A DNA stretch of 64,000 nt from Flavobacterium akiainvivens (GTDB lineage: Bacteria; Bacteroidota; Bacteroidia; Flavobacteriales; Flavobacteriaceae), in NCBI RefSeq assembly GCF_001278115.1, contig NZ_LIYD01000005.1, positions 2,001,715-2,065,714 of the forward strand. Reading direction: 5' to 3'. A model generated the notes under the pieces. The model worked only from the letters and a program-made list of their open reading frames with translations. It was not told the origin of the DNA and made no database searches. Made by a program: the position numbers and the translations under genes. Positions 1-51,033 of the stretch are shown piece by piece. The stretch's first letter is position 1. Every line of letters begins with the position of its first letter.

Positions 1-652
1 TGGTATATCCACTGAATATCCTATAAAAGAAATACCAGAAGAAAGTATCTTTTATAGAATCCGCAAAAATTTAAGCTCTCCTGAAAGCGAAGAGCAATAT
101 GATAGCGCTCCTGATTCATGCTTAGGACAGAATAGATTAGATAGTACTGGGCTGCCTATTTTATATGCTTCGCAAAATTTAGAGCTCTGTGTACACGAAT
201 GCCGCGTCACTATGGCAGACAATACATATGTAGCAACTCTACAGCCAACTCGTTCTCTGAAGTTCCTCGATTTGACACATATACTCCACGAGAATGTAGG
301 TGAATTTGAAAGTTTAGATATTGCCATTCATATGCTTTTCTCTGCACCAGAGCATTCTTATGATATATGTCGCGAGATTGCCAAAGCAGCTCATATACAC
401 GGATATGATGGCTTAATTTACCCCTCTTATTTTAGTACACTAGGAACAGGCTCTACTCCATTTCCAACACTGTTAGGTTTTTCGATTAGGCAATTTGAAG
501 AATTGAAAGACTATGCAAGAGCCCAGGTAATTGAAAATATCGCCATATTTGGTAGACCGCTAAGGGATGGTAAAATAATAGTAAGGAGCATTAATCGCGT
601 AGTTCTTAATAAAGTAGAATACGATCTACGATTTGGTCCCGTACAAATTTAA
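1..652 (+). CDS. RES-domain protein, 5' end outside window
   Basis: The frame is open from base 2 to the stop at 652, so the gene starts before the window. The ATG at 212 is internal, because conserved sequence precedes it. The translation shows the RES pattern: an FYRIR stretch near base 50, an NRLDSTGLPILYAS segment around 130-175, then LELCVHECR, and later GYDGLIYPSY. In known RES toxins these residues build an NAD-binding pocket, and the proteins deplete NAD+ while an Xre-type antitoxin normally precedes them. That antitoxin would lie outside the window and is not seen. The CoiA-like gene starts 14 bases downstream, suggesting co-transcription. The family call is good; toxin activity is inferred. 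Confidence 0.75.
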   Translation, partial: GISTEYPIKEIPEESIFYRIRKNLSSPESEEQYDSAPDSCLGQNRLDSTGLPILYASQNLELCVHECRVTMADNTYVATLQPTRSLKFLDLTHILHENVGEFESLDIAIHMLFSAPEHSYDICREIAKAAHIHGYDGLIYPSYFSTLGTGSTPFPTLLGFSIRQFEELKDYARAQVIENIAIFGRPLRDGKIIVRSINRVVLNKVEYDLRFGPVQI

Positions 653-666
653 TAGATAGAATAGAT

Positions 667-1479
667 ATGCGTTTCGCTATTGTTGATACAGAATTAGTTG
701 AGGCTAGAAGTGGCCTTTTAGCTACATGCCCTGGATGCGAGCAGCCAGTCGTGGCTAAATGCGGCTCGAAAAAAGTGCATCATTGGGCACACAAAGGTAG
801 CAGGATTTGTGACGACTGGTGGGAACCTGAAACAGAATGGCATCGCGCATGGAAAAATAATTTCCCGACTGAGTGGCAGGAAATATTCTTGCCTGATATC
901 AAAACAGGTGAAAAGCATATAGCCGATACTCGTACTCCTGATGGCCTAGTGATAGAATTCCAACATTCGCATATTGACCCAAAAGAACGTATGATCCGTG
1001 AAAATTTCTATAAGACTATGGTTTGGGTAGTAGACGGAACACGCCTTAAAAGAGATTTTCCACGATTTCTAAAAGCCAAAGATGGTTTTCGCCAAGTTCT
1101 CAAGCCCGGAAACTTCCACGTAGAATTTGTTGAGGATTGCTTTCCTGCTGCATGGCTCGAATCTACTGTCCCTGTTATTTTCGATTTTCTTGGACACGGA
1201 TTAATCTCCGATGATCTCTCAATTAGACAACCTCTCTACTGTCTATTTCCTATACGTGTAGGCTGGTATGCCGTTGTTGCTGAAATCCCGAGAAAAGCAT
1301 TTATAAAAAGCGTTACGAGCGGTGAATGGCTTCCTCGGGTCAAAAGTTATATGGAGGAACTCAAACAAATAAATCGCGAGAGGGATGCCGAAATGAAGAA
1401 GCAACAAAGGAGAGGATCTGGGAGGATTTTCTTCAGACCTGTTAGATATGTTCGATATGTCCGGCGAAGACGCTTTTAG
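667..1479 (+). CDS. CoiA-like nuclease-domain protein
   Basis: A 270-aa protein with the CoiA-family layout. The N-terminus has a zinc-site-like cluster (C21, C24, HHWAH around 38-42, C48). Next come ETEWHRAWK (about 56-63) and a PD-(D/E)XK-like core: D87 in IADTR and E97-x-Q99 in IEFQHS. The C-terminus is basic and arginine-rich. CoiA was named for competence in Gram-positives, but this superfamily is common as a stand-alone nuclease on accessory DNA. It sits 14 bases after the RES gene and about 50 bases before an attachment-site-like repeat, so it is probably cargo at the far end of an integrative element. Catalytic activity is inferred from the motif only. Confidence 0.65.
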   Translation: MRFAIVDTELVEARSGLLATCPGCEQPVVAKCGSKKVHHWAHKGSRICDDWWEPETEWHRAWKNNFPTEWQEIFLPDIKTGEKHIADTRTPDGLVIEFQHSHIDPKERMIRENFYKTMVWVVDGTRLKRDFPRFLKAKDGFRQVLKPGNFHVEFVEDCFPAAWLESTVPVIFDFLGHGLISDDLSIRQPLYCLFPIRVGWYAVVAEIPRKAFIKSVTSGEWLPRVKSYMEELKQINRERDAEMKKQQRRGSGRIFFRPVRYVRYVRRRRF

Positions 1480-1532
1480 TCTGATCTATATTGACTATTC
1501 GAAATTTAACTGTAGATATTTTTTGATGTAAA

Positions 1533-1554
1533 CCGTAACCCCGGCGTAACCCCA
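1533..1554 (+). repeat. Tandem GTAACCCC repeat, left arm of attP-like site
   Basis: Two tandem CGTAACCCC units. A 21-base stretch beginning here recurs exactly and in the same orientation at 1767-1787, on the other side of the tRNA-Lys fragment. By position and tandem nature these look like arm-type integrase binding sites. That role is inferred. Confidence 0.6.
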
Positions 1555-1602
1555 GGTGATTCTTCGGGTTTTCAAGACTGCGGCTAAGTCATTGAAAATA
1601 AA

Positions 1603-1648
1603 TGGTGATCCCGCTGGGATTTGAACCCAGGACCCTCTGATTAAAAGT
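1603..1648 (-). pseudogene. tRNA-Lys(TTT) 3' fragment with encoded CCA (att core)
   Basis: Read on the minus strand, this is the 3' part of a tRNA: anticodon loop CTTTTAA (TTT, lysine), 3' anticodon stem TCAGA, T stem and loop CTGGG-TTCAAAT-CCCAG, acceptor strand CGGGATC, discriminator A and CCA. The 5' half is absent: the sequence upstream of the loop does not pair with TCAGA. A tRNA fragment reaching from the anticodon loop to the 3' end is the usual attachment core of tRNA-targeting integrases. The encoded CCA contrasts with the tRNA-Met at 7938-8011, which has none. Confidence 0.8.
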
Positions 1649-1766
1649 TTGATTATGGCACTTTTGACATGCTTTATGTAATATTGATAAACATTGATTT
1701 TCCTTGTGTTTTCAATGAATTACTGCTTTATAAGGTATGATATGGAACGGTGTGATTTTACATCAG

Positions 1767-1790
1767 CCGTAACCCCGGCGTAACCCCGGC
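1767..1790 (+). repeat. Tandem GTAACCCC repeat, right arm of attP-like site
   Basis: Direct-orientation copy of the repeat at 1533-1553, again as two tandem CGTAACCCC units, 42 bases before the integrase start codon. With the left copy it brackets the tRNA-Lys fragment. Confidence 0.6.
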
Positions 1791-1831
1791 ACAAAACAAA
1801 ACATATCTTATTTCCTGAAAGAGGGCAGTTT

Positions 1832-3037
1832 ATGAGCAAGAAGCTCAATTTCACTAAGGCCGCTTTAGAGTCCATTGAGCTACCTAAAAAGGGGCAGCGA
1901 CTTGTTCTCATCGACACCAAGATTGGCGGGCTACATTGTCGCGTTACAGACAAAGGCGTTAAAACATTCAGCGTCTTCCGCCGTATGAATGGGCGACCAG
2001 AAAGAGTAACGATAGGAAAATTTCCCACAGTGTCGGTTGATGTTGCTAGGGCAATGGCAATAAAAATCAGCAATGCCCTTGTAGAAGGGCAAAGCCCCGC
2101 CGATGCAAGGCGGGCGCATAAGGCCGAGCTGACCTTTGATGACCTGTTTCATAAATATTTAGAGAAGCACTCAAAAATTAAGAAACGAACAGCATATCAA
2201 GATGAAAGCAATTATAAAGCTTACTTAAAAGATCAGGTCGGAAAATATAAGCTTTCTCAAATTCAGCAAAAAGATATTGCGGATATTCATGCGGACATTT
2301 GCTGTCAGGTAAAGCGAACAACAGCCGAAAATGAAGTGCTTTACAAGAGCGCAAGCACAGCAAACAGAATATTAGCTCTTGCCTCCAGCATTTTCAGTTG
2401 GGGCGTTAATAATGGGTTCTGTAAATTTAACCCGGCACGAGGCATTAAGAAAAGCCCCGAGCGCAGTCGCGACAGATTTCTACAGGCTGATGAACTGCCG
2501 CGCTTTTTTTCTTCCCTTGCACAGGAGGAAAACGAAACTCTACGTGATTTCTTCATGATGTGTTTGCTGACAGGCGCACGCAGAAGCAACGTCATGGCAA
2601 TGGAATGGAATCAAATTTCTCTTGAAAGAAAAGAATGGCGAATACCCCGTACTAAGAATAATGAACCACAAACAATTCCACTTGGCGAAGAAGCCATCGA
2701 AATTTTAAAAAGCCGTAAGGTTGTGAACGAATCAACTTCGCCTTTTGTCTTTCCCGGAACTGGAAAGAGCGGCTACCTCGTAGAACCTAAAAAGGGATGG
2801 CAAAGAATTTTAAAGCGAGCGGGTATCGAAGATCTGCGAATTCATGACTTGCGGAGAACTTTAGGGAGCTGGCAGGCGAAGACTGGTGCAAGCCTTCTTA
2901 TTGTTGGTAAATCGCTAGGACATAAATCACCGCAAGCCACCGCAATATATTCTAGGCTTGATCTCGACCCTGTGCGCAAATCAATGGAAACAGCAACAAA
3001 GGCAATGTATCAAGCATCCAAAGAGCAACAACAATAA
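1832..3037 (+). CDS. P4-type tyrosine integrase
   Basis: A 401-aa site-specific recombinase. The N-terminus is a DUF4102-like arm-binding domain (IGGLHCRVTDKGVKTF, then VTIGKFPTVSVDVARAMA), followed by a SAM-like core-binding domain (about 105-205). The catalytic domain has R in LTGARRSN, K in the PRTKNNEP strand, HDLRR, LGHKS and the nucleophile in IYSRLD. All catalytic residues are present, so it is probably active. The ATG is preceded by GAGGG at suitable spacing. It faces away from the adjacent tRNA-Lys fragment, as expected of an integrase beside its attachment site. This integrase type is far more typical of Proteobacteria than of Bacteroidota. Confidence 0.92.
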   Translation: MSKKLNFTKAALESIELPKKGQRLVLIDTKIGGLHCRVTDKGVKTFSVFRRMNGRPERVTIGKFPTVSVDVARAMAIKISNALVEGQSPADARRAHKAELTFDDLFHKYLEKHSKIKKRTAYQDESNYKAYLKDQVGKYKLSQIQQKDIADIHADICCQVKRTTAENEVLYKSASTANRILALASSIFSWGVNNGFCKFNPARGIKKSPERSRDRFLQADELPRFFSSLAQEENETLRDFFMMCLLTGARRSNVMAMEWNQISLERKEWRIPRTKNNEPQTIPLGEEAIEILKSRKVVNESTSPFVFPGTGKSGYLVEPKKGWQRILKRAGIEDLRIHDLRRTLGSWQAKTGASLLIVGKSLGHKSPQATAIYSRLDLDPVRKSMETATKAMYQASKEQQQ

Positions 3038-3249
3038 ACACGATTCTTCATGCAGGCTCTATTCGGAGCCAGCATGATTCTCATAAAATCCATTTAGATT
3101 GAGAAAATTCTGTCCTCACATATTTCGCTATGAATTGATATGCGTTGTTTATCGTTTACGAATTCAGCTTTTTTATAGTCCGCGTAAAAATCGGTTATAG
3201 TTAATTAAGGATTGCAACTTATGATAGTCCTTGATGAAAGGAGATTACT

Positions 3250-3450
3250 ATGACTAGAACTAACCCGACTGAGGAAATATACTTTAACAGAAAGGAGGCT
3301 GCTGCATATATGAACTGCTCATGGCGCTCACTGGCAACATGGGACTGCAAAGGCACTTATGATTTCAAGCCAATCAAGATCGGCAAAAAAATGGTGCGCT
3401 ACCGTAAATCGGTTCTCGATGCGTTTATGAGAGAACGCACCCGACCGTAA
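3250..3450 (+). CDS. AlpA-like HTH regulator/excisionase
   Basis: A 66-aa protein with a winged-HTH excisionase-like (HTH_17/AlpA) pattern: YFNRKEAAAYMNCSWRSL, then a recognition region leading to KIGKKMVRYRKSVLDAFM. Such proteins act as recombination directionality factors or as activators of the adjacent integrase. A strong Shine-Dalgarno (AAAGGAG) lies 7-8 bases before the ATG. The 212-bp spacer between int and this gene holds no other gene that I can see. The role in excision is inferred from family and position. Confidence 0.75.
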   Translation: MTRTNPTEEIYFNRKEAAAYMNCSWRSLATWDCKGTYDFKPIKIGKKMVRYRKSVLDAFMRERTRP

Positions 3451-3498
3451 TAAATCCCCCCATAAATCTAAAAATCTAAACTTTTGAAAGGTGTTGCT

Positions 3499-4425
3499 AT
3501 GAACATAGAACAAGCCAACGGCATTGCTATGACTGAAATCCTGCGTAAACTCGGCTATTATCCCGTACGGGAAAAAGGCGATGAATTGTGGTATCTCTCG
3601 CCGCTTCGCGACGAAAAAACTGCAAGCTTCAAGGTGCATACAGGCAAAAACGTATGGTACGACTTTGGGGCAGGAAGAGGCGGGGATGTCATCAAATTCG
3701 CCTGCAATTATCTTGTATCAGGAAATGACGGATCTGCGGTCTCTGCGGCCTTGAAATGGCTTCAGGCGTTCGATACCTATACCTATACGACTGTAACCTA
3801 TGCCAAAAGAGAACCCGACCCGGCAGAAAGAGGTTTTCAGGTTCTTAAAGCATCTGAACTTAAATACCGCATTCTCACCAACTTTATCGAAAGCCGGGGC
3901 ATTCCTTTGGAATTGGCTCAGGAATTCCTCAAAGAGGTCTTGGTACGCAATAACCGCACAGGCTGGCAATTCCGCGCCATCGGGCTTTATACCGAAGCTG
4001 AAGGTTTTGAAATTCGAACAGAGGATTTAAAAGCCAGTGTCGGAGCAAAAAGTATTTCCTTTATTCGCGGAACTGAACTACCCGCAAAAGAAATCCATGT
4101 CTTTGAAGGTATGATGGACTTCCTATCAGCCTTCGCCCAACACGAAAAGCAGCATTTTGAAGGCGATGTGATTGTTTTGAACTCTGTTTCCCTCGCGCCG
4201 CAGGCAGTGCCTTACATCACAAACTACCGTAATTATAAAAAGCTGACGACATGGCTTGATAACGACGAGGCTGGGCGTGATGCCACCAAATACTTCAAGG
4301 AACTTGCTGTAAATGAGAGTATCGAATTTGAAGCCATGAACGACCTATATGCGCCTTACAAGGATGTAAATGACTGGCATGTGCAAACGCTGAAGTCAAA
4401 GCCTCCATCGACCCCCAAACCATAA
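3499..4425 (+). CDS. Toprim/primase-like protein of mobile elements
   Basis: About 308 aa. I start at the ATG at 3499, because AAAGG lies just upstream of it; the frame is open further back to a TTG at 3484. The N-terminus resembles the CHC2-type domain of DnaG-like proteins without its zinc cysteines (WYLSPLRDEKTASFKV, WYDFGAGRGGDVIKF). The C-terminal half has a toprim fold: glutamate in VFEGMMDFLSAF and the acidic pair in TTWLDNDEAGRDATKYF. Proteins of this form are common on Bacteroidota mobile elements and are presumed to support element replication or transfer. It lies 10 bases before the RadC gene. Confidence 0.75.
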   Translation: MNIEQANGIAMTEILRKLGYYPVREKGDELWYLSPLRDEKTASFKVHTGKNVWYDFGAGRGGDVIKFACNYLVSGNDGSAVSAALKWLQAFDTYTYTTVTYAKREPDPAERGFQVLKASELKYRILTNFIESRGIPLELAQEFLKEVLVRNNRTGWQFRAIGLYTEAEGFEIRTEDLKASVGAKSISFIRGTELPAKEIHVFEGMMDFLSAFAQHEKQHFEGDVIVLNSVSLAPQAVPYITNYRNYKKLTTWLDNDEAGRDATKYFKELAVNESIEFEAMNDLYAPYKDVNDWHVQTLKSKPPSTPKP

Positions 4426-4435
4426 GGAGCAAAGA

Positions 4436-4939
4436 ATGAGCCTGACCCAAGACTTTAGCAAGGTCGCCGAAATTCAATTAACCTATAAAGGAAACTACAT
4501 GCCATCAGAAAAGCCGGTCATTAGAACCTCACGGGATGCCTACAATCTATTTTCAGAGACCTGGGATAGCAATACAATTGAATTGCAGGAGCATTTCAGG
4601 ATCATGGTACTGGATCGTGATAATAGTGTGCTAGGTGTCTCTACAATATCCACAGGGGGGATTACAGCCTGTATTGTTGATACAAAACTTGTATTTGTTA
4701 CTGCGCTTCTAGCGAAAGCATCAGGGATAATTATTGCGCACAACCACCCATCGGGAAATAAACGATTCAGCAGCGTAGATAAAAAGCTTACTCGGGACTT
4801 GGCAACTGCCGGAAAAGTTTTAGATATTCCTGTCCTTGATCATCTGCTTGTTACAAAGGAAGGTTGGCTGTCTATGGCAGATATTGGAGAAATGCCAAAT
4901 ATATTAGTCATGCCCCAAGAAACTATTGTACCATTCTGA
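4436..4939 (+). CDS. RadC/JAB-domain protein
   Basis: A 167-aa MPN/JAB-domain protein with a complete JAMM metal site: E52, H102-x-H104 in AHNHPSG, S112 and D115. These proteins are predicted zinc hydrolases carried by many plasmids and integrative elements; the substrate is unknown, and the historical link to DNA repair was withdrawn. The ATG follows AAGGAG. A second in-frame ATG 20 codons on, also after AAAGGAA, could give a shorter product lacking only the N-terminal tail. It is the last gene before the convergent stem-loop at 4951-5001. Confidence 0.85.
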   Translation: MSLTQDFSKVAEIQLTYKGNYMPSEKPVIRTSRDAYNLFSETWDSNTIELQEHFRIMVLDRDNSVLGVSTISTGGITACIVDTKLVFVTALLAKASGIIIAHNHPSGNKRFSSVDKKLTRDLATAGKVLDIPVLDHLLVTKEGWLSMADIGEMPNILVMPQETIVPF

Positions 4940-4950
4940 CTTATTATTAT

Positions 4951-5001
4951 ATTCCTTGTGATAAAACCAAATAATCCTCTTTGGGCTTTATCACAAGGAA
5001 T
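4951..5001. terminator. Convergent stem-loop between radC and the AT-rich operon
   Basis: A perfect 15-bp inverted repeat (ATTCCTTGTGATAAA and its complement) with an inner CCAAA/TTTGG stem. It lies between the plus-strand radC gene and the minus-strand operon ending at 5033, so it can terminate both. Base composition changes abruptly here. Confidence 0.7.
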
Positions 5002-5032
5002 TCAAACTAGATTTTTGAAATCTATAGTAGAA

Positions 5033-5602
5033 TTACACAAAGAAATCGAACTTAAAGCAAAATCTCCCTTTAGAAAGTACAAGATATCTTTCTTCACCAT
5101 TTAAATCTCTCTTTGCTAAGCCAGCCTTGACAAATTTATTCATAAAAATTTCGAATTGCAATTCGTTCACATTCTTTCGAATGTATTCAGGTAAGCTATC
5201 AAAGTGTTCTTGAACTGTCATATATGCATTTTTAATAGGTAAACGCATATATACAACTTCTTCTTCATCTTTAATCTCCATGAGTTCAAAGCTGATTATA
5301 CTTGTCAATATTGCCGTAAGTATTGTACTGCCAAATTGCTTATGATCATTAAAATAAAGTACACTAGATAGTAAAGACGCATGAAATGCCTTGTTAAATA
5401 AATCTTTACCTACAGTAAGTTTTAAAGCTCCAGTTTTAAAATATAATGGTTCAATTGTATTGTTATTTGTTTCTAACTGTGCCTTAAAAGACTGCCAAAA
5501 ATACTGTTCAGTATTAATTATACTAATACTACGATCACCTTTAAAAACCTTCGATAATTTATCATTTATAAATGCTTCACTAATCTCGATATAATCTTCC
5601 AT
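5033..5602 (-). CDS. Hypothetical protein, last gene of AT-rich operon
   Basis: A 189-aa protein I do not recognise. It has no signal peptide or clear membrane segment. The last 50 residues (NELQFEIFMNKFVKAGLAKRDL, then a beta-hairpin-like EERYLVLSKGRF) could form a small winged-helix fold. It starts 12 bases after the 627-aa gene and has the same very AT-rich composition, so the three genes 7514-7759, 5615-7498 and 5033-5602 very likely form one transcript. No Shine-Dalgarno is seen, unlike the neighbouring integrase module. It could be a partner or inhibitor of the large protein; this is speculation. Confidence 0.6.
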   Translation of the reverse strand: MEDYIEISEAFINDKLSKVFKGDRSISIINTEQYFWQSFKAQLETNNNTIEPLYFKTGALKLTVGKDLFNKAFHASLLSSVLYFNDHKQFGSTILTAILTSIISFELMEIKDEEEVVYMRLPIKNAYMTVQEHFDSLPEYIRKNVNELQFEIFMNKFVKAGLAKRDLNGEERYLVLSKGRFCFKFDFFV

Positions 5603-5614
5603 ACTTATAATTAA

Positions 5615-7498
5615 TTAATAATAACTCTCATTTATCAAAGAAGTTTTGAACCAAACTGAATGATCTAAGTATGCTTGTCGAACTACATCAAATATAGCAG
5701 ATCCATATTTCCTTTCTGTAAACATACTTTTATCAAGAATATCTTTATCATAAATATAATTTTTATTTTTACCAAGGTATTTAAGAGCCATAACTATAAA
5801 ATACTTCGTACAAGGTGTAACAACTAAAACAGTCTTACAATCATTCCCGAACTCCAATAAACAGACAATAAATGTAGCGGAAGTATCACCATTAAAAGAA
5901 ATATCCATCTCACAATAAGTAATATTCGGGTTAGTAAAAAAAAAATCTTTTTCGAGAAGGTAAACAAAAGACAAATCATTAAAAAAGATTGTGTAATGAC
6001 TAAAGTTATAAATAATTTCATCCCATTTTAACAGAAATTCTTCACAACCTATAATGTGATAGTAAACACAACAACAAATCTCTAGTGAAGTGCGGTTAGA
6101 TGCAAAAAATATTCTTAAATCTTCAGGATCATCAAAAGGTATTATTATTACTTTTCGTTTATCACCTACATAATATCGAGAACTAAGAAAAGTGATTGGA
6201 TTTTTTTGACTATCTAACCACATTTTGTCTTCAACATTTTCGAATTTAAATTCGTTAACCAGATTTCTTGGGCTTCTCATCATAAGCACTAAGTCACCGA
6301 ATGAATTAAAAAGGCCAGGCTCATTTTCTCCACTAAAAATTGTTCTTTTTAAATCAACCGGCAAATTTTCAGGCTTTATGATCTCACAAATTTCAGGTTC
6401 TTCGTTAATAATCCATTTAAAATTTTCGAGGTTTATTAGCAGTGAACGATCAATAGGATATTCTTTTTCAGACATCTCTCTCAATACTGTCATTCCTAAA
6501 TATTCGTTTACCTTTATTCGGATATGGTTAGGTAACGCATAGGCTTCAGCATAATTTCTAGTAAATGAATTTAATTTATTAAACTCTTTTTGTAAGAGAT
6601 TATATAAGTATTCACTGAGTTCTTGATACAGCATCACAACGGGTGGATTATGAAGAGGCTCTTCTACGAATTCTCCACGAATTTGCTTCTCAATATAATT
6701 GTATGCAGGAAGATATTTCCTAAATTTGAAGAATTCTTCAAATGCTTTTTTAAAGAAATCAGAGCCTAATGTTTCTGCAATATATATTAGTCTATGGTCT
6801 GGATAATCTAAATCTATGAGATCTGAAAAATTTATCTTATCAAATTCACTATCAATCTTTTGTAGCGATTTTAGGCTTGAAAAGCAAAAATTAAGACAAA
6901 CACTCATAATTATACCTTTATTATAACTCCCTGGAATATTTTCAACCAAACTCTCGCCCAAGTAATAATAATATAAATAATCTCGATCATTTTCTGTCAG
7001 TTTTTCAGGCGAAGAAATATTTTCTGACTTATTGATACTGAACCAGGTTGCAAATGTTTCATGCGCCTTAATTGAATTTTCTGACAACCAATTGTATATA
7101 TTACTATATGAACCATTATTAAAATTATCGTGCTCAGGTAATATTGAATAAATTGAAAGGAGGTTGCCAAAAGGAGTTGAGGCATTAATAAATCGATGTA
7201 TTGGCTCATGAATTCCAAAGATGAATTCTTTTTCTTGCGACATAAACTTCGCATCTTTAATAATAATTCCGTTAGCTGAATATGTGCCTATTGGAACATG
7301 TTTATCTTCCGCCAAAAGGCGCGATTCCACATTATCTGCGGACATTTTGATCATGATTTGAATTATTTCAACATTCTTTTCAGATAATATAAAAATACCT
7401 GATTCAGTACTAAATTCCTTAACTAAATATTCAATAACGCGTTCATCACGATCAGTTAGATAGGGTATAAGTATTTCTCGTATTTCATCGGTACTCAT
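5615..7498 (-). CDS. Hypothetical 627-aa protein with HExxH motif
   Basis: A large soluble protein of unknown family. Residues 97-101 read HEPIH, a possible zinc-peptidase HExxH motif in the context FIFGIHEPIHRFINAS, with E147 (AHETFATW) at a distance where gluzincins place the third ligand. The rest is rich in aromatic and acidic residues, with no transmembrane segment and no signal peptide. It is the central gene of the AT-rich operon, 15 bases after the 81-aa gene and 12 bases before the 189-aa gene. A peptidase-like effector is possible, but the motif may be coincidental. No recognisable nuclease or ATPase motif was found. Confidence 0.65.
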   Translation of the reverse strand: MSTDEIREILIPYLTDRDERVIEYLVKEFSTESGIFILSEKNVEIIQIMIKMSADNVESRLLAEDKHVPIGTYSANGIIIKDAKFMSQEKEFIFGIHEPIHRFINASTPFGNLLSIYSILPEHDNFNNGSYSNIYNWLSENSIKAHETFATWFSINKSENISSPEKLTENDRDYLYYYYLGESLVENIPGSYNKGIIMSVCLNFCFSSLKSLQKIDSEFDKINFSDLIDLDYPDHRLIYIAETLGSDFFKKAFEEFFKFRKYLPAYNYIEKQIRGEFVEEPLHNPPVVMLYQELSEYLYNLLQKEFNKLNSFTRNYAEAYALPNHIRIKVNEYLGMTVLREMSEKEYPIDRSLLINLENFKWIINEEPEICEIIKPENLPVDLKRTIFSGENEPGLFNSFGDLVLMMRSPRNLVNEFKFENVEDKMWLDSQKNPITFLSSRYYVGDKRKVIIIPFDDPEDLRIFFASNRTSLEICCCVYYHIIGCEEFLLKWDEIIYNFSHYTIFFNDLSFVYLLEKDFFFTNPNITYCEMDISFNGDTSATFIVCLLEFGNDCKTVLVVTPCTKYFIVMALKYLGKNKNYIYDKDILDKSMFTERKYGSAIFDVVRQAYLDHSVWFKTSLINESYY

Positions 7499-7513
7499 AG
7501 TATTTATTTTAAG

Positions 7514-7759
7514 TTAGTCGTTTGAAATAAGAATTAATTGTTTATACCTACTCTTATCATCAGCCAATTCTAGATCAGTAAAGACTTCCGCCATCATCAA
7601 TCTTTCATCACATATTACCGATGATAAACCAACAAACTTAAGTTTTGATGGGGCGAAAAGGTGGTATCTACAATCGCATTTTGGTGGGGAAGCTGAAAGT
7701 GAGTTTCCAATATAAACACACCTACGCTCTTCGAGAATATGAATGATATAATAATACAT
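7514..7759 (-). CDS. Small hypothetical protein, weakly GIY-YIG-like
   Basis: An 81-aa protein, first gene of the AT-rich operon. Its start, YYYIIHILEERRCVYIGNS, resembles the two-strand GIY...YIG motif of GIY-YIG nucleases in spacing and residues. The protein is shorter than that domain and I cannot find the usual downstream Arg and Glu with certainty. Two cysteines (KCDCR) follow. The resemblance is weak. The upstream region (7760-7860) is extremely AT-rich and would hold the operon promoter; no clear TAnnTTTG box could be fixed. Confidence 0.45.
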   Translation of the reverse strand: MYYYIIHILEERRCVYIGNSLSASPPKCDCRYHLFAPSKLKFVGLSSVICDERLMMAEVFTDLELADDKSRYKQLILISND

Positions 7760-7867
7760 AGAGGAAAATATTTATGAGATAAATATAATAGAAAAATGTT
7801 AACTTAATGTTAGTCAATATATTCTTATATTAAAATATATCTTTTAAAGATATAACTCATAAAAAAA

Positions 7868-7889
7868 TGTTGTACCTATGTTGTACCTA
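7868..7889 (+). repeat. Two tandem 11-bp repeats beside tRNA-Met
   Basis: TGTTGTACCTA occurs twice in perfect tandem, directly beyond the terminator of the tRNA-Met gene on its 3' side. It resembles in position and form the tandem GTAAC repeats near the other attachment sites in this window. It may mark the end of an element integrated at the tRNA 3' end. Confidence 0.5.
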
Positions 7890-7897
7890 AAAACACA

Positions 7898-7927
7898 AAG
7901 GGCTTTCAGATATCTCTGAAAGCCCTT
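7898..7927 (-). terminator. tRNA-Met terminator
   Basis: Perfect 13-bp stem (AAGGGCTTTCAGA and complement) with a TATC loop, 11 bases beyond the 3' end of the tRNA-Met gene and followed on the minus strand by T-rich sequence. Confidence 0.75.
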
Positions 7928-7937
7928 ATTTTACTCG

Positions 7938-8011
7938 TAGCGAAGACGGGAGTTGAACCCGTGACCTCAGGGTTATGAATCCTGCGCTCTAACCGACTGA
8001 GCTACCTCGCC
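7938..8011 (-). tRNA. tRNA-Met (CAT), elongator
   Basis: Full cloverleaf on the minus strand: acceptor GGCGAGG, D-arm GCTCAG...GAGC, anticodon loop TTCATAA (CAT), variable GAGGT region, T-arm ACGGG-TTCAACT-CCCGT, acceptor CTTCGCT and discriminator A. There is no encoded CCA. The GGATTCATAACCCTGAGGTC context is that of the elongator rather than the initiator. Acceptor pairs 1-72 and 6-67 are G-T wobbles, and 31-39 is an A-C mismatch. The 3' end points into the accessory DNA at 5-7.9 kb. Confidence 0.93.
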
Positions 8012-39054: not shown

Positions 39055-39157
39055 ATTTGTTTAAAGTTTAAGGTTCCATTCGGGGCGGGCTTGTACGTAA
39101 AAATGGAACGCGGATGACACGGATTGAACAGGTTTAAACGGATTTTACAAATTCAGA

Positions 39158-39185
39158 TCATGGGTTCAATTCCCGTCTTCGCTAC
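39158..39185 (+). pseudogene. tRNA 3'-end remnant (T-arm plus acceptor)
   Basis: 28 bases matching the T-arm and acceptor end of the tRNA-Met at 7938-8011 except at two positions (TGGGTTCAATTCCCGTCTTC here). The rest of the tRNA is missing; upstream sequence is ordinary intergenic DNA. It points right, toward the mobilizable element, and is followed by a terminator as a tRNA gene would be. Such a piece is the typical scar of tRNA-targeted integration. Confidence 0.7.
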
Positions 39186-39188
39186 ATA

Positions 39189-39232
39189 AAATAAAACCGC
39201 TGCATTTCAGTTGAAATGCAGCGGTTTTATTT
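39189..39232 (+). terminator. 17-bp perfect terminator stem
   Basis: ATAAAACCGCTGCATTT, a 6-base loop and its exact complement, ending in a T run. It stands directly behind the tRNA remnant, as the tRNA-Met terminator stands behind the intact gene. The remaining DNA up to 39416 contains a tandem GTAACG repeat and no gene. Confidence 0.85.
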
Positions 39233-43615: not shown

Positions 43616-44872
43616 TCATAATCTCCTCCCTTTCTTCTTCATTCGGTTGGCAAACTGTTCTTCCTCGTAGTCCACACCCTGTTCTTGGGGCAACAGGCTG
43701 AACAATCCCAAATCGGAACTCTGTGAACGCTCTTGCAAGATAAAACCAAAAAGGTCTTTTGTAGGCAGGTTATCCATTGTATTTGTTTTGGAAACAGAGT
43801 TGTCCCGTATTCTTAATACGGGCTTATTTCTGTTGTTCCACCAATCGTTAAACACGTTTGCAGACAGGTTTCTGTCTAACTGTGAACCGTTCCAAACGGT
43901 TCGACTTTCGTGGTCAATAAAGGTCATACCATAAATTCGTCCTTCACTATTACGTCTTACAACTGTATTAATACTCTGCTCGGTCAACTGCTTTTTAAAA
44001 TCTGTTTCGTTAATTGTGGTATGTATGGCATGCTCTACCGTATTTTTCAGAACAGACTTTACAGGCGTGGTTTTCATTTTCTCTTTGGACTGCTCAAAGT
44101 GTTTTTGCAGATGTGCAACGCCTGCATCTTTTCCGAAAAGTGATGCTTTGAACGGATTGCTAACCTTGTTGCCGTTTTTATCCAATGCGAAATACACCAA
44201 TCCGTTTACGGTCTGTCCGTTCCGTTCACCTTTGACTTCCTCCGCTGTGATGTTGAAAAGAGAAAGTAACGCATTGTAGCTACCCATAGTAGAAAAGTTA
44301 TAATACTTGGGTAGATGCCTTACTACCGAAGCAATCTGACTTTTGATGTCGCCATTATTATGACTTACAGGCTTGAAAACTTTATTGGCTTGTTTCTGCT
44401 CTTGTTCAGTTGCCTTTTTCATATTATATTTCTGTTCCAAATCCCGACAGATTGCCATTGAGCGTGGATGGTCGTAATCATCGGGGATTTTCCTGCCGTC
44501 AATGCCTACACAAGTCGAAACGATATGGATATGGGTGCGGTCAATATCCGTATGCTTGAAAACAATATAGGGCTGATTGCCATAACCCGTACGCTCCATA
44601 TAAACGCGAGCCATTTCCGTAAACTGTTCATCACTGACCTTATCCGCAGGATCTGGGTTCAGCGATATATGCCGTACCGTCTTTTCAGTTTTAATATTTG
44701 CAGACAGATACGGCTCAAAGCATTTATTAAAATAGGCTACTGAATACTTGCCGTCCACAGTGTCGGGTATCTTGTTCAATAACAAAACCGCTCCGTCTTC
44801 CCTGTCTACTTTCTGCTGATTGTACAAAATAGCTCCGTACATATTGCTTCCTTTTCCAATTTTTGCAATCAT
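43616..44872 (-). CDS. mobB: Relaxase/mobilization nuclease MobB
   Basis: 418 aa of the MobB/BfmA relaxase type of Bacteroidota elements. The N-terminal domain carries the metal-binding histidine motif FKHTDIDRTHIHIVS (H107, D109, H114, H116) and MYGAILYNQQ, with a tyrosine near residue 17 as nucleophile candidate. The C-terminal half is helical and ends in a basic tail (RMKKKGRR). It nicks the transfer origin and leads the DNA strand through a helper conjugation pore. It starts 4 bases after the mobA stop, so the two are translationally linked. Confidence 0.9.
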   Translation of the reverse strand: MIAKIGKGSNMYGAILYNQQKVDREDGAVLLLNKIPDTVDGKYSVAYFNKCFEPYLSANIKTEKTVRHISLNPDPADKVSDEQFTEMARVYMERTGYGNQPYIVFKHTDIDRTHIHIVSTCVGIDGRKIPDDYDHPRSMAICRDLEQKYNMKKATEQEQKQANKVFKPVSHNNGDIKSQIASVVRHLPKYYNFSTMGSYNALLSLFNITAEEVKGERNGQTVNGLVYFALDKNGNKVSNPFKASLFGKDAGVAHLQKHFEQSKEKMKTTPVKSVLKNTVEHAIHTTINETDFKKQLTEQSINTVVRRNSEGRIYGMTFIDHESRTVWNGSQLDRNLSANVFNDWWNNRNKPVLRIRDNSVSKTNTMDNLPTKDLFGFILQERSQSSDLGLFSLLPQEQGVDYEEEQFANRMKKKGRRL

Positions 44873-49669: not shown

Positions 49670-50920
49670 TCATAGTTGAGAAGCAAAAGACTGTTCAATA
49701 CCCTTAAATTTGTGCGATACTTTTTGCATATCCTTTCCAACTTTCTCATTGAGAATTTTTGCATAAATCTGTGTAGTTGCAATATTCTTATGCCCTAACA
49801 TCTTGCTCAAACTTTCCAATGGAACGCCCTCACTTAAAAATAGCGTGGCAAAGGTATGACGTGCCAAATGAAAGGTTACTTTCTTTTCTACAAGGCAGTC
49901 AATCAGTTGAGATATTCTCTTTAAGCTGTCATTACAAATCGTATTTGATGGTACAGGAAATACCTTTCCGTCCTTTGACAATCCTGCATATTTTTCAATA
50001 ATCATTTTTGGAATATCTAAGAGCATTACGTTTGATGATGTAGCTGTTTTCTTTCTTCGCACAATAATCCACCTGTTACCGTCAAAAAAATCTTGGATAT
50101 TGCTATTTTTAAGTCCTTTCATATCTGAATAGGAAAGACCTGTAAAGCAACTGAAAACAAACAGGTCTTTAACTAATTCGTCTTTCTTTTTATCGCAGTT
50201 GAACGTTACGAGCTGTTCCAATTCATTACGCAATAGATAACCTCGGTCTTTATCCTTTTTGGTATTCTTGTATTCGCTGAACGGATTAAAAGCAAGATGC
50301 TTTCTGCTCATTGCCAATCGGCAAAGCGTAGTAAATCCAATCATATACAGCCAAATGGTGTTGTGTGTTAAACTTTGGTCGTCACGCAGGTAGTAATTAA
50401 AGTCCTGCACAAAATCAGGTGTAAGGTCGTTAAAGGACACATCGGAATAGCCGTATTTTGTAAGTGCAAAATTTCGAAGATGTTTCAAAAGTATTTTGTA
50501 TTTACTGCGTGTGCCATTTACCCGAAGTCCACTATTAACCTTTTTCTCATAGTCCAATAGGAACTGTTCATAGAATTTGAAAAAGGTCAGTTCTCCGCTT
50601 TCCATCCCAAGAACGGCATTTTTAAGTTTAGCACTGTTTACAGCCCCCTCATTCTTCAGAATTTTGGAATAGCATTCCTCAATACCCGAACGAATTTTGT
50701 CAAGTTTCCTGTTTGTGTCTTGTGCTTCTCGGCTTTTACCTAAAACCCTGCCGTACTTCAAATCCCAATTTGTTGCGGAAATATCCAGCTTTGTACTGAA
50801 TGCAGACTGTTTGCCGTTTACGGTAATTCTGCACATAACCGTAACTTTTCCGTTTTTCTTTGGTGCATTCTTTTTCAGGTAGAACAATACCTTAAACGTT
50901 GATTTTTTTGTCGTTTCCAT
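49670..50920 (-). CDS. IntDOT-like tyrosine recombinase
   Basis: 416 aa. The start is the ATG at 50920; the frame also opens at a GTG at 50926. Domains: Arm-binding (TFKVLFYLKKNAPKKNGKVTVMCRITVNGK), SAM-like core-binding (about 105-205), and catalytic domain with HLARH, LGHKNI and the tyrosine in TQIYAKI. The usual first catalytic Arg is replaced by Ser in CFTGLSYSD, as is known for IntDOT of Bacteroides. The active site is otherwise complete, so it is probably functional. It stands at the right end of the element, beside the tandem GTAAC repeat at 51034. Confidence 0.92.
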   Translation of the reverse strand: METTKKSTFKVLFYLKKNAPKKNGKVTVMCRITVNGKQSAFSTKLDISATNWDLKYGRVLGKSREAQDTNRKLDKIRSGIEECYSKILKNEGAVNSAKLKNAVLGMESGELTFFKFYEQFLLDYEKKVNSGLRVNGTRSKYKILLKHLRNFALTKYGYSDVSFNDLTPDFVQDFNYYLRDDQSLTHNTIWLYMIGFTTLCRLAMSRKHLAFNPFSEYKNTKKDKDRGYLLRNELEQLVTFNCDKKKDELVKDLFVFSCFTGLSYSDMKGLKNSNIQDFFDGNRWIIVRRKKTATSSNVMLLDIPKMIIEKYAGLSKDGKVFPVPSNTICNDSLKRISQLIDCLVEKKVTFHLARHTFATLFLSEGVPLESLSKMLGHKNIATTQIYAKILNEKVGKDMQKVSHKFKGIEQSFASQL

Positions 50921-51033
50921 ACTCACAATTCTTAATGATAAAATTAAACTTATGTGAGCTGCGGAACAATATGAAAAACTATGCAGAAAGCTGAAATACA
51001 GTATTTTAAAACGATTGTTTCTAATATTTAAAA

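Follow-up and report, generated by a model that had tools for sequence, protein, structure and literature searches.

An uncrossed attachment site beside its integrase gene in the chromosome of Flavobacterium akiainvivens, probably carried in by a second integrative element

The window analyzed here (the whole stretch of 64 kb) begins with the last 11 bp (TGGTATATCCA; 1-11, + strand) of an IS21-family copy, a right end common to other IS21 copies. It is followed on the + strand by an ORF for a RES-like protein of 146 aa (212-652), a weak assignment (PF08808, E 0.0067, below its cut-off), and by the gene for a CoiA-like protein of 270 aa (667-1479; PF25164 CoiA_N, E 3.8e-9) on the far-arm side of the attachment site described below. 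A CoiA-like gene on the far-arm side of the core is also present at the Microvirga plasmid locus L019 (1780-2043; 35% over 86 aa). Further downstream lies int_P (1832-3037, + strand), which encodes a tyrosine integrase of 401 aa with Arm-DNA-bind_3 (PF13356, 5.9e-12) and Phage_integrase (PF00589, 3.9e-26) domains; in an alignment of six proteins, it has kept the conserved R, HxxR, H and Y positions, which we take to be the catalytic residues. Three genes on the + strand come next: one for a small HTH protein of 66 aa that is likely an excisionase or regulator (3250-3450; PF12728, 4.3e-5, below cut-off; phrog_66 excisionase and transcriptional regulator, 3.9e-6), one for a CHC2/Toprim primase of Bacteroidota type (3484-4425 with the TTG start as listed, an ATG being present at 3499; PF13155, PF01807), and one for a RadC-like JAB protein of 167 aa (4436-4939; PF04002, 1.6e-33). 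The adjoining low-GC (30%) cargo on the - strand (5033-7759) consists of three ORFs to which no family could be assigned; none of the three has a match in Pfam or PADLOC, and the two larger ones have none in PHROGs. Among these, the low-GC ORF at 5615-7498 encodes 627 aa and lacks a match in all three collections. Nine ORF products of window 1-8011 were scanned, and a single integrase was found among them.

The segment between the CoiA-like gene and int_P contains two 100% identical copies of a 21-bp arm pair, CCGTAACCCCGGCGTAACCCC, both on the + strand (1533-1553 and 1767-1787). These two are the only matches with three or fewer mismatches in the 64 kb, while 100 dinucleotide shuffles yielded none, and a repeat finder returned them as its first family with a spacing of 234. 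They enclose a core of 46 bp (1603-1648, - strand, read by eye) that represents the 3' portion of a tRNA-Lys (TTT) and spans the anticodon loop up to the CCA. The far arm pair is located 49 bp from the tRNA 3' end, which is the geometry of the relatives, the integrase-side pair is found 118 bp from the core, and int_P starts 44 bp past the latter pair. ARAGORN detected no tRNA-Lys in the window, its sole call being a tRNA-Met at 7937-8011; the core matches the 3' end of the host's intact tRNA-Lys(TTT) genes at 86% over 44 nt. The initial annotation had described tandem arms on both sides of a tRNA-Lys 3' fragment, and this is what the two identical 21-bp pairs around 1603-1648 represent; its coordinates (1533-1790) ran 3 bases too far, since the site ends at 1787, and are otherwise accurate.

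To place this arrangement among its relatives, the integrase was compared with genome contigs, which gave 9 loci, and a sample of 398 genomes was taken from the phylum of Acidithiobacillus sulfuriphilus, the organism that carries locus L010. Integrase matches at E 1e-60 or better were present in 15 of these 398 genomes, with up to 56% identity. Most of the integrase relatives possess an arm pair with an 11-bp period upstream, in most of them together with a tRNA 3' fragment, and the arms of several are of the GTAACCCC type; the concern raised at the outset that the arms might prove unrelated to the integrase is not borne out. Both ends could be read in seven integrated loci (L010, L011, L012, L015, L101, L115, and L116). 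In all seven the arms are split, one pair being found on the integrase side and one near the second core copy; at L101 the far pair is imperfect and was read by eye. ARAGORN identified an intact tRNA at the far end of six of the seven (Lys, Lys, Asn, Arg, Met, and Met), and the far end of L015 is marked by the core repeat alone. The split arms of these loci are the crossed state.

A different arrangement is present on four viral contigs (L154, L155, L160, and L161), where a far pair, a tRNA-like 3' fragment (by eye), an integrase-side pair and the integrase gene follow one another. The far pairs start at -276 to -311 and the near pairs at -30 to -63 relative to the start of the integrase match, compared with -298 and -64 in the window. 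These two-sided arms of the same unit on viral contigs are the free attP. The viral set consisted of 26 loci (L143-L168) of the 55 found, and a two-sided attP was seen in 4 of the 26; 6 of the 26 are devoid of the integrase start and at least 4 more of usable upstream DNA. When the window's integrase itself served as the query against viral contigs, no relative was recovered, and a search with the exact 34-bp stretch of tRNA sequence gave no match. Given that the site has the anatomy of the viral free attP and that the arms are split in integrated relatives, the proposal that an uncrossed attP-like site resides in this chromosome holds up. Judged by its sequence, window 1533-1787 is confirmed as the complete, uncrossed attP of int_P, and its recombination activity is putative.

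Cellular loci were surveyed over 480 bp upstream of the integrase, at 28 loci including the window and then at 4 more (L016, L019, L094, and L099). Among these 32 loci, a core flanked on either side by one and the same arm pair in a single orientation was seen at two only, the window and L064 from genome G588. At L094 the same unit occurs twice in opposite orientation (-273 and -71), with the tRNA fragment (about -420) outside both. A second arm pair of a different unit is found at -262 to -299 at L100, L085, L011, and L120, to which L010 adds one by eye; the second pairs of unlike unit at the former four are as the accretion of unlike elements would give. With less than 300 bp of upstream DNA, L105 and L109 are too short to reveal a far pair. 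L017, L018, L092, and L093 (no integrase start or upstream DNA) lay outside the scan, as did L113, a repeat of L010. Three candidates for further cases were rejected. The Bacteroidota-binned G1100 (a 5.2-kb contig) and G1144 have one-sided or differing arms and possibly represent bin contamination. G360 carries an int_P homologue with integrase-side arms and no recognizable core, and another arm pair (GTTATGCATATGTTATGCA) is found beside a tRNA-Ser of this locus (L068, G360:C31, 407-5574). Two ORFs of the same locus, a Gabija-like pair by eye, directly precede the int_P homologue.

At the other end of the segment, a second type of arm pair, GTTGTACCTATGTTGTACC (7869-7887, + strand, 19 bp), lies 49 bp from the 3' end of the intact tRNA-Met(CAT) gene (7937-8011, - strand), the presumed attachment gene of a carrier element that we refer to as X. 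This tRNA-Met gene is found at the same place in all nine genus relatives checked, and no GTTGTACC pair was seen within 160 bp of it in the seven genus relatives read. Two of the genus relatives (L035 and L040) have other repeated units beside it, as read by eye, so the place looks like an integration hotspot. A tRNA-Met-like 3' fragment (39155-39194), which matches the tRNA-Met at 7937 with 86% over 42 nt, is also present further into the window, with an GGTAACGATTTGGTAACGG pair at about 39300, a relaxase-like ORF (by eye; 43616-44872, - strand) and an ORF for a Bacteroidota-type integrase at 49670-50926 (- strand); these features probably represent a second integrative element in the window.

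The left side of X is less complete. The body of the IS21 copy is situated to the left of the window, with a run of 284 N inside it, and beyond it stands an SDR gene truncated to its first half; the other half was not recovered, nor was it seen beside the IS21 copies. A protein encoded in the left flank possesses a T9SS type A sorting domain (TIGR04183, E 9e-15), a mark of Bacteroidota. Since the left end is cut by IS21 and the 284-N gap, the carrier is seen only half in the window's genome. The initial annotation had advised looking to the left for an intact tRNA-Lys or a second integrase, and this was answered in part: no tRNA-Lys is present in 123 kb around the site, and the 59 kb to the left of the window and the other stretches searched yielded neither an int_X end (int_X being the integrase of X described below) nor a tRNA-Met core. 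The genome's other integrases, at the loci searched, reach at best 26% to the int_X of G588. We infer that the left end of X was lost, together with its integrase gene, at IS21. Five IS21 copies are present on contig C1 (near 1042502, 1060551, 2000254, 3816132, and 4434797), and by eye no matching target duplication flanks any of them, so that the exact event of loss is not readable. N gaps of 154, 284, 344, and 284 bases are contained in four of the five copies, and scaffold joins at such copies deserve checking.

The idea that an inversion mediated by IS21 removed the left end found no support. The copies at about 1.04 and 1.06 Mb are in opposite orientation, and TTTGTACC arms precede an integrase gene at 1.093 Mb; by eye, however, the left flank of one copy never continues directly into the right flank of another, and no tRNA-Met core was found in the stretches read there. 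At the copy at 4434797, the two flanks match each other in inverted orientation over 6 bp. The SDR halves were likewise discarded as evidence for a simple insertion of IS21, since no C-terminal half was found next to an IS21 copy; the SDR piece at 4436327 covers residues 72-144, an overlapping portion, and is therefore another gene.

Both ends of such a carrier can be read in G588, a genome from the window's class and from another family. Its 542-kb contig possesses a tRNA-Leu(TAA) gene (262095-262180) with an GTTGTACCTATGTTGTACC arm pair by its 3' end, and a 107-bp copy of the tRNA-Leu end (228452-228558; 99%) followed by the same GTTGTACCTATGTTGTACC pair and by int_X, the gene for an Arm-DNA-bind_5 integrase of 403 aa. 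Since the copy of the tRNA-Leu end, the arm pair and int_X mirror the intact tRNA-Leu with its GTTGTACCTATGTTGTACC pair, X is crossed into tRNA-Leu in G588, as an element of 33.6 kb with both ends crossed. An identical 19-mer arm pair thus occurs at both ends of X in G588 and beside the tRNA-Met of the window, where this right-end pair would be what is left of a comparable outer element. The same arm type is also present on a virus-like contig, IMGVR_UViG_3300048834_001057 (L140/L141; 51.7 kb), which has repeated ends, an GTTGTACCTATGTTGTACC arm pair and an int_X relative (29%).

The cargo of X in G588 includes a TrwC-type relaxase, an ArdC protein and a TraG/TraD match below cut-off, and ten scanned proteins of the element contained two tyrosine integrases and one resolvase. 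Inside X lie an int_P homologue (40% to the window), an uncrossed attP, and homologues of the HTH protein (51%), the primase (39%) and RadC (46%). The arm unit of this attP is GTTCCACC, opposite to the integrase gene, and the core (L064, 2844-2888) is CCA-bearing and by our reading derived from a tRNA-Thr(GGT); its gaps measure 121 and 56 bp, compared with 118 and 49 bp in the window. The flank at L064:2890-2990 occurs once in G588. The integrase, HTH protein, primase and RadC (in two copies) are the only proteins of the G588 element with counterparts in the window, apart from a match of int_X to the unrelated integrase near 50 kb (23%). Compared with the window, the integrase-attP block of G588 is inverted relative to the HTH-primase-RadC genes, and the arms are reversed relative to the integrase gene.

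Among the explanations that the initial annotation had offered, entry by way of a second element is the best supported, given both ends of X in G588 and the same arm pair at the window's tRNA-Met. We therefore consider it probable that the attP was carried in by X, itself integrated at tRNA-Met; the attP would then be uncrossed because the DNA entered the chromosome by other means than int_P. In the proposed course of events, X, equipped with its own Bacteroidota-type integrase, would have taken up an int_P-attP-HTH module and would also have held a Bacteroidota-type primase and a RadC gene alongside it. X would then have integrated at tRNA-Met, and its left part, with int_X and half of the host's SDR gene, would later have been lost at the IS21 copy. 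int_P may still work.

The module looks mosaic from its sequence relationships, because the integrase family is commoner outside the Bacteroidota, whereas the relatives of the primase are nearly all found within this phylum. The integrase and attP would accordingly have a different background from the Bacteroidota-type primase: the 15 of 398 genomes with integrase matches at E 1e-60 from the Acidithiobacillus phylum compare with 3 of 395 at 1e-45 from the window's phylum, the window counted. Among 30 plasmid records with the window's primase, the named genera are nearly all Bacteroidota, with Sulfitobacter as one exception. The Sulfitobacter and Runella primase plasmids were considered as free forms of the element and set aside, since no tyrosine integrase is annotated on them (the gene table is incomplete). 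Homologues of the HTH protein were present at several relatives' loci, and neither primase nor RadC had a match at E 1e-5 in 27 relatives' loci (G360 included) or in 26 viral loci, many of either set being short. In an integrase tree of 29 rows, the window grouped with two rows from G721 (support 82/89, not starred); five changes are needed to account for the five Bacteroidota-binned rows, of which starred branches force at least two, and long branches, that of L064 included, make the placements unsure. The tRNA core does not settle the donor. Its best outside match (95% over 44 nt) comes from a genome of the window's phylum and is without CCA, and its match in the other phylum's sample (92% over 49 nt) is with CCA; five tRNA-Lys loci of the window's phylum, besides the host's, as well as the tRNAs read from the window's genome, are without CCA. 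An attachment core moves with its element and so need not mark the last host.

Two elements of the int_P type might once have stood in tandem at a tRNA-Lys gene, the site being their junction and the rest having been deleted. Such a junction of two like elements would appear identical to an attP, and two-sided arms do occur at L100, L085, L011, L120, and (by eye) L010, but with unlike units. A tandem array should show the element a second time and should end at an intact target tRNA, and neither feature was found: the genome contains one int_P and a single copy of the 301-bp site, whose other matches are the two intact tRNA-Lys(TTT) genes (86% over 44 nt), and 123 kb around the site hold no tRNA-Lys and no third GTAACCCC pair. 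The host's two tRNA-Lys genes are located elsewhere, intact and only 86% like the core. A former tandem is accordingly quite improbable, and the initial proposal of two copies in tandem finds no support in the present genome. Given the single site and the lack of GTAACCCC in 19 kb around both tRNA-Lys genes, an intact tRNA-Lys gene with both arm repeats, which the initial annotation had named as evidence against its reading, is not what the genome contains; its search for the core elsewhere led only to those two genes. With one int_P and one site, the junction of a concatemer is also unlikely, although the left join of the window rests on scaffolding because of the 284-N gap. That gap, directly left of the window and within a repeated IS21, is what an assembly artefact, in which reads from a free circle were joined to the chromosome, has in its favor. 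We regard such an artefact as very improbable: the window itself is without N, so that the attP site and tRNA-Met stand on one ungapped stretch, a free circle needs an integrated parent copy and none was found in the assembly, and the equivalent arrangement recurs in G588 on a 542-kb contig with no N in the 37.9 kb read.

The site could also be a functional second address. X would use int_X (arms GTTGTACC) at tRNA-Met or tRNA-Leu in Bacteroidota, and its second integrase, from a family found mostly in another phylum, with a free attP whose CCA-bearing tRNA-Lys or tRNA-Thr core would serve in the tRNA genes of other hosts. Two distant Bacteroidota lineages have preserved an intact integrase frame along with the two arm pairs, and both cores encode CCA, unlike the tRNA-Met and tRNA-Leu genes next to X (by eye). 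The frequency of relatives in the Acidithiobacillus-phylum sample given above points the same way, as does the finding that none of the scanned loci from that sample has a two-sided pair of the same unit in the same orientation. Retention may be passive, however, and no int_P-integrated element with primase or RadC was found among the 27 loci, many of them on short contigs; a second address of this kind seems rather unlikely to us. The intact site and integrase would equally suit a chromosomal landing pad for circles of related int_P elements (attP x attP), but neither the window nor G588 has such an insertion, and we consider this very improbable. Carriage by X, with int_X as the integrase in use, is thus the explanation that we prefer.

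An attachment site in a chromosome is usually taken for a crossed end. Where an attP instead stays free within an element that a different integrase has inserted, its sequence marks an integration system that was captured or is kept as a spare. Software that assigns to each integrase its closest tRNA fragment could place the ends wrongly in this case. Should the spare system be functional, it would offer one element a direct route to settle in different phyla. Among the literature matches listed, with subscription journals mostly outside their scope, none concerned an uncrossed attP retained by an element that had been inserted by a different integrase. In CGI48/GI21 of Shewanella putrefaciens CN-32 (PMC8978831), an inner element with its own integrase resides inside a tRNA-integrated outer one, and its usual chromosomal site (yicC) is intact. 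According to the portion of that article considered here, GI21 has crossed into the outer island (attL21/attR21, 9 bp), whereas the inner attachment site is uncrossed in our case, with no attL and attR of the inner element but one copy of the core and the same arms on both sides. The tripartite ICE3 elements of Mesorhizobium (PMC5882170) are described, in the part of the article consulted, as single elements with several tyrosine integrases, each with its own attachment sites; three integrases are involved, and the parts are dispersed over three chromosomal regions. Instead of three integrases and three crossed sites, window 1-8011 has one integrase and the G588 element two tyrosine integrases, and G588, with both ends seen, has one site crossed and the other not. 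Accreted islands at tRNA genes (L010, L011, L100, L085, and L120) share the two-sided arms with the window, but there the units differ by side. Closest in order and spacing are the viral attP sites of L154, L155, L160, and L161, which are expected to be free, whereas that of the window is part of a bacterial chromosome.
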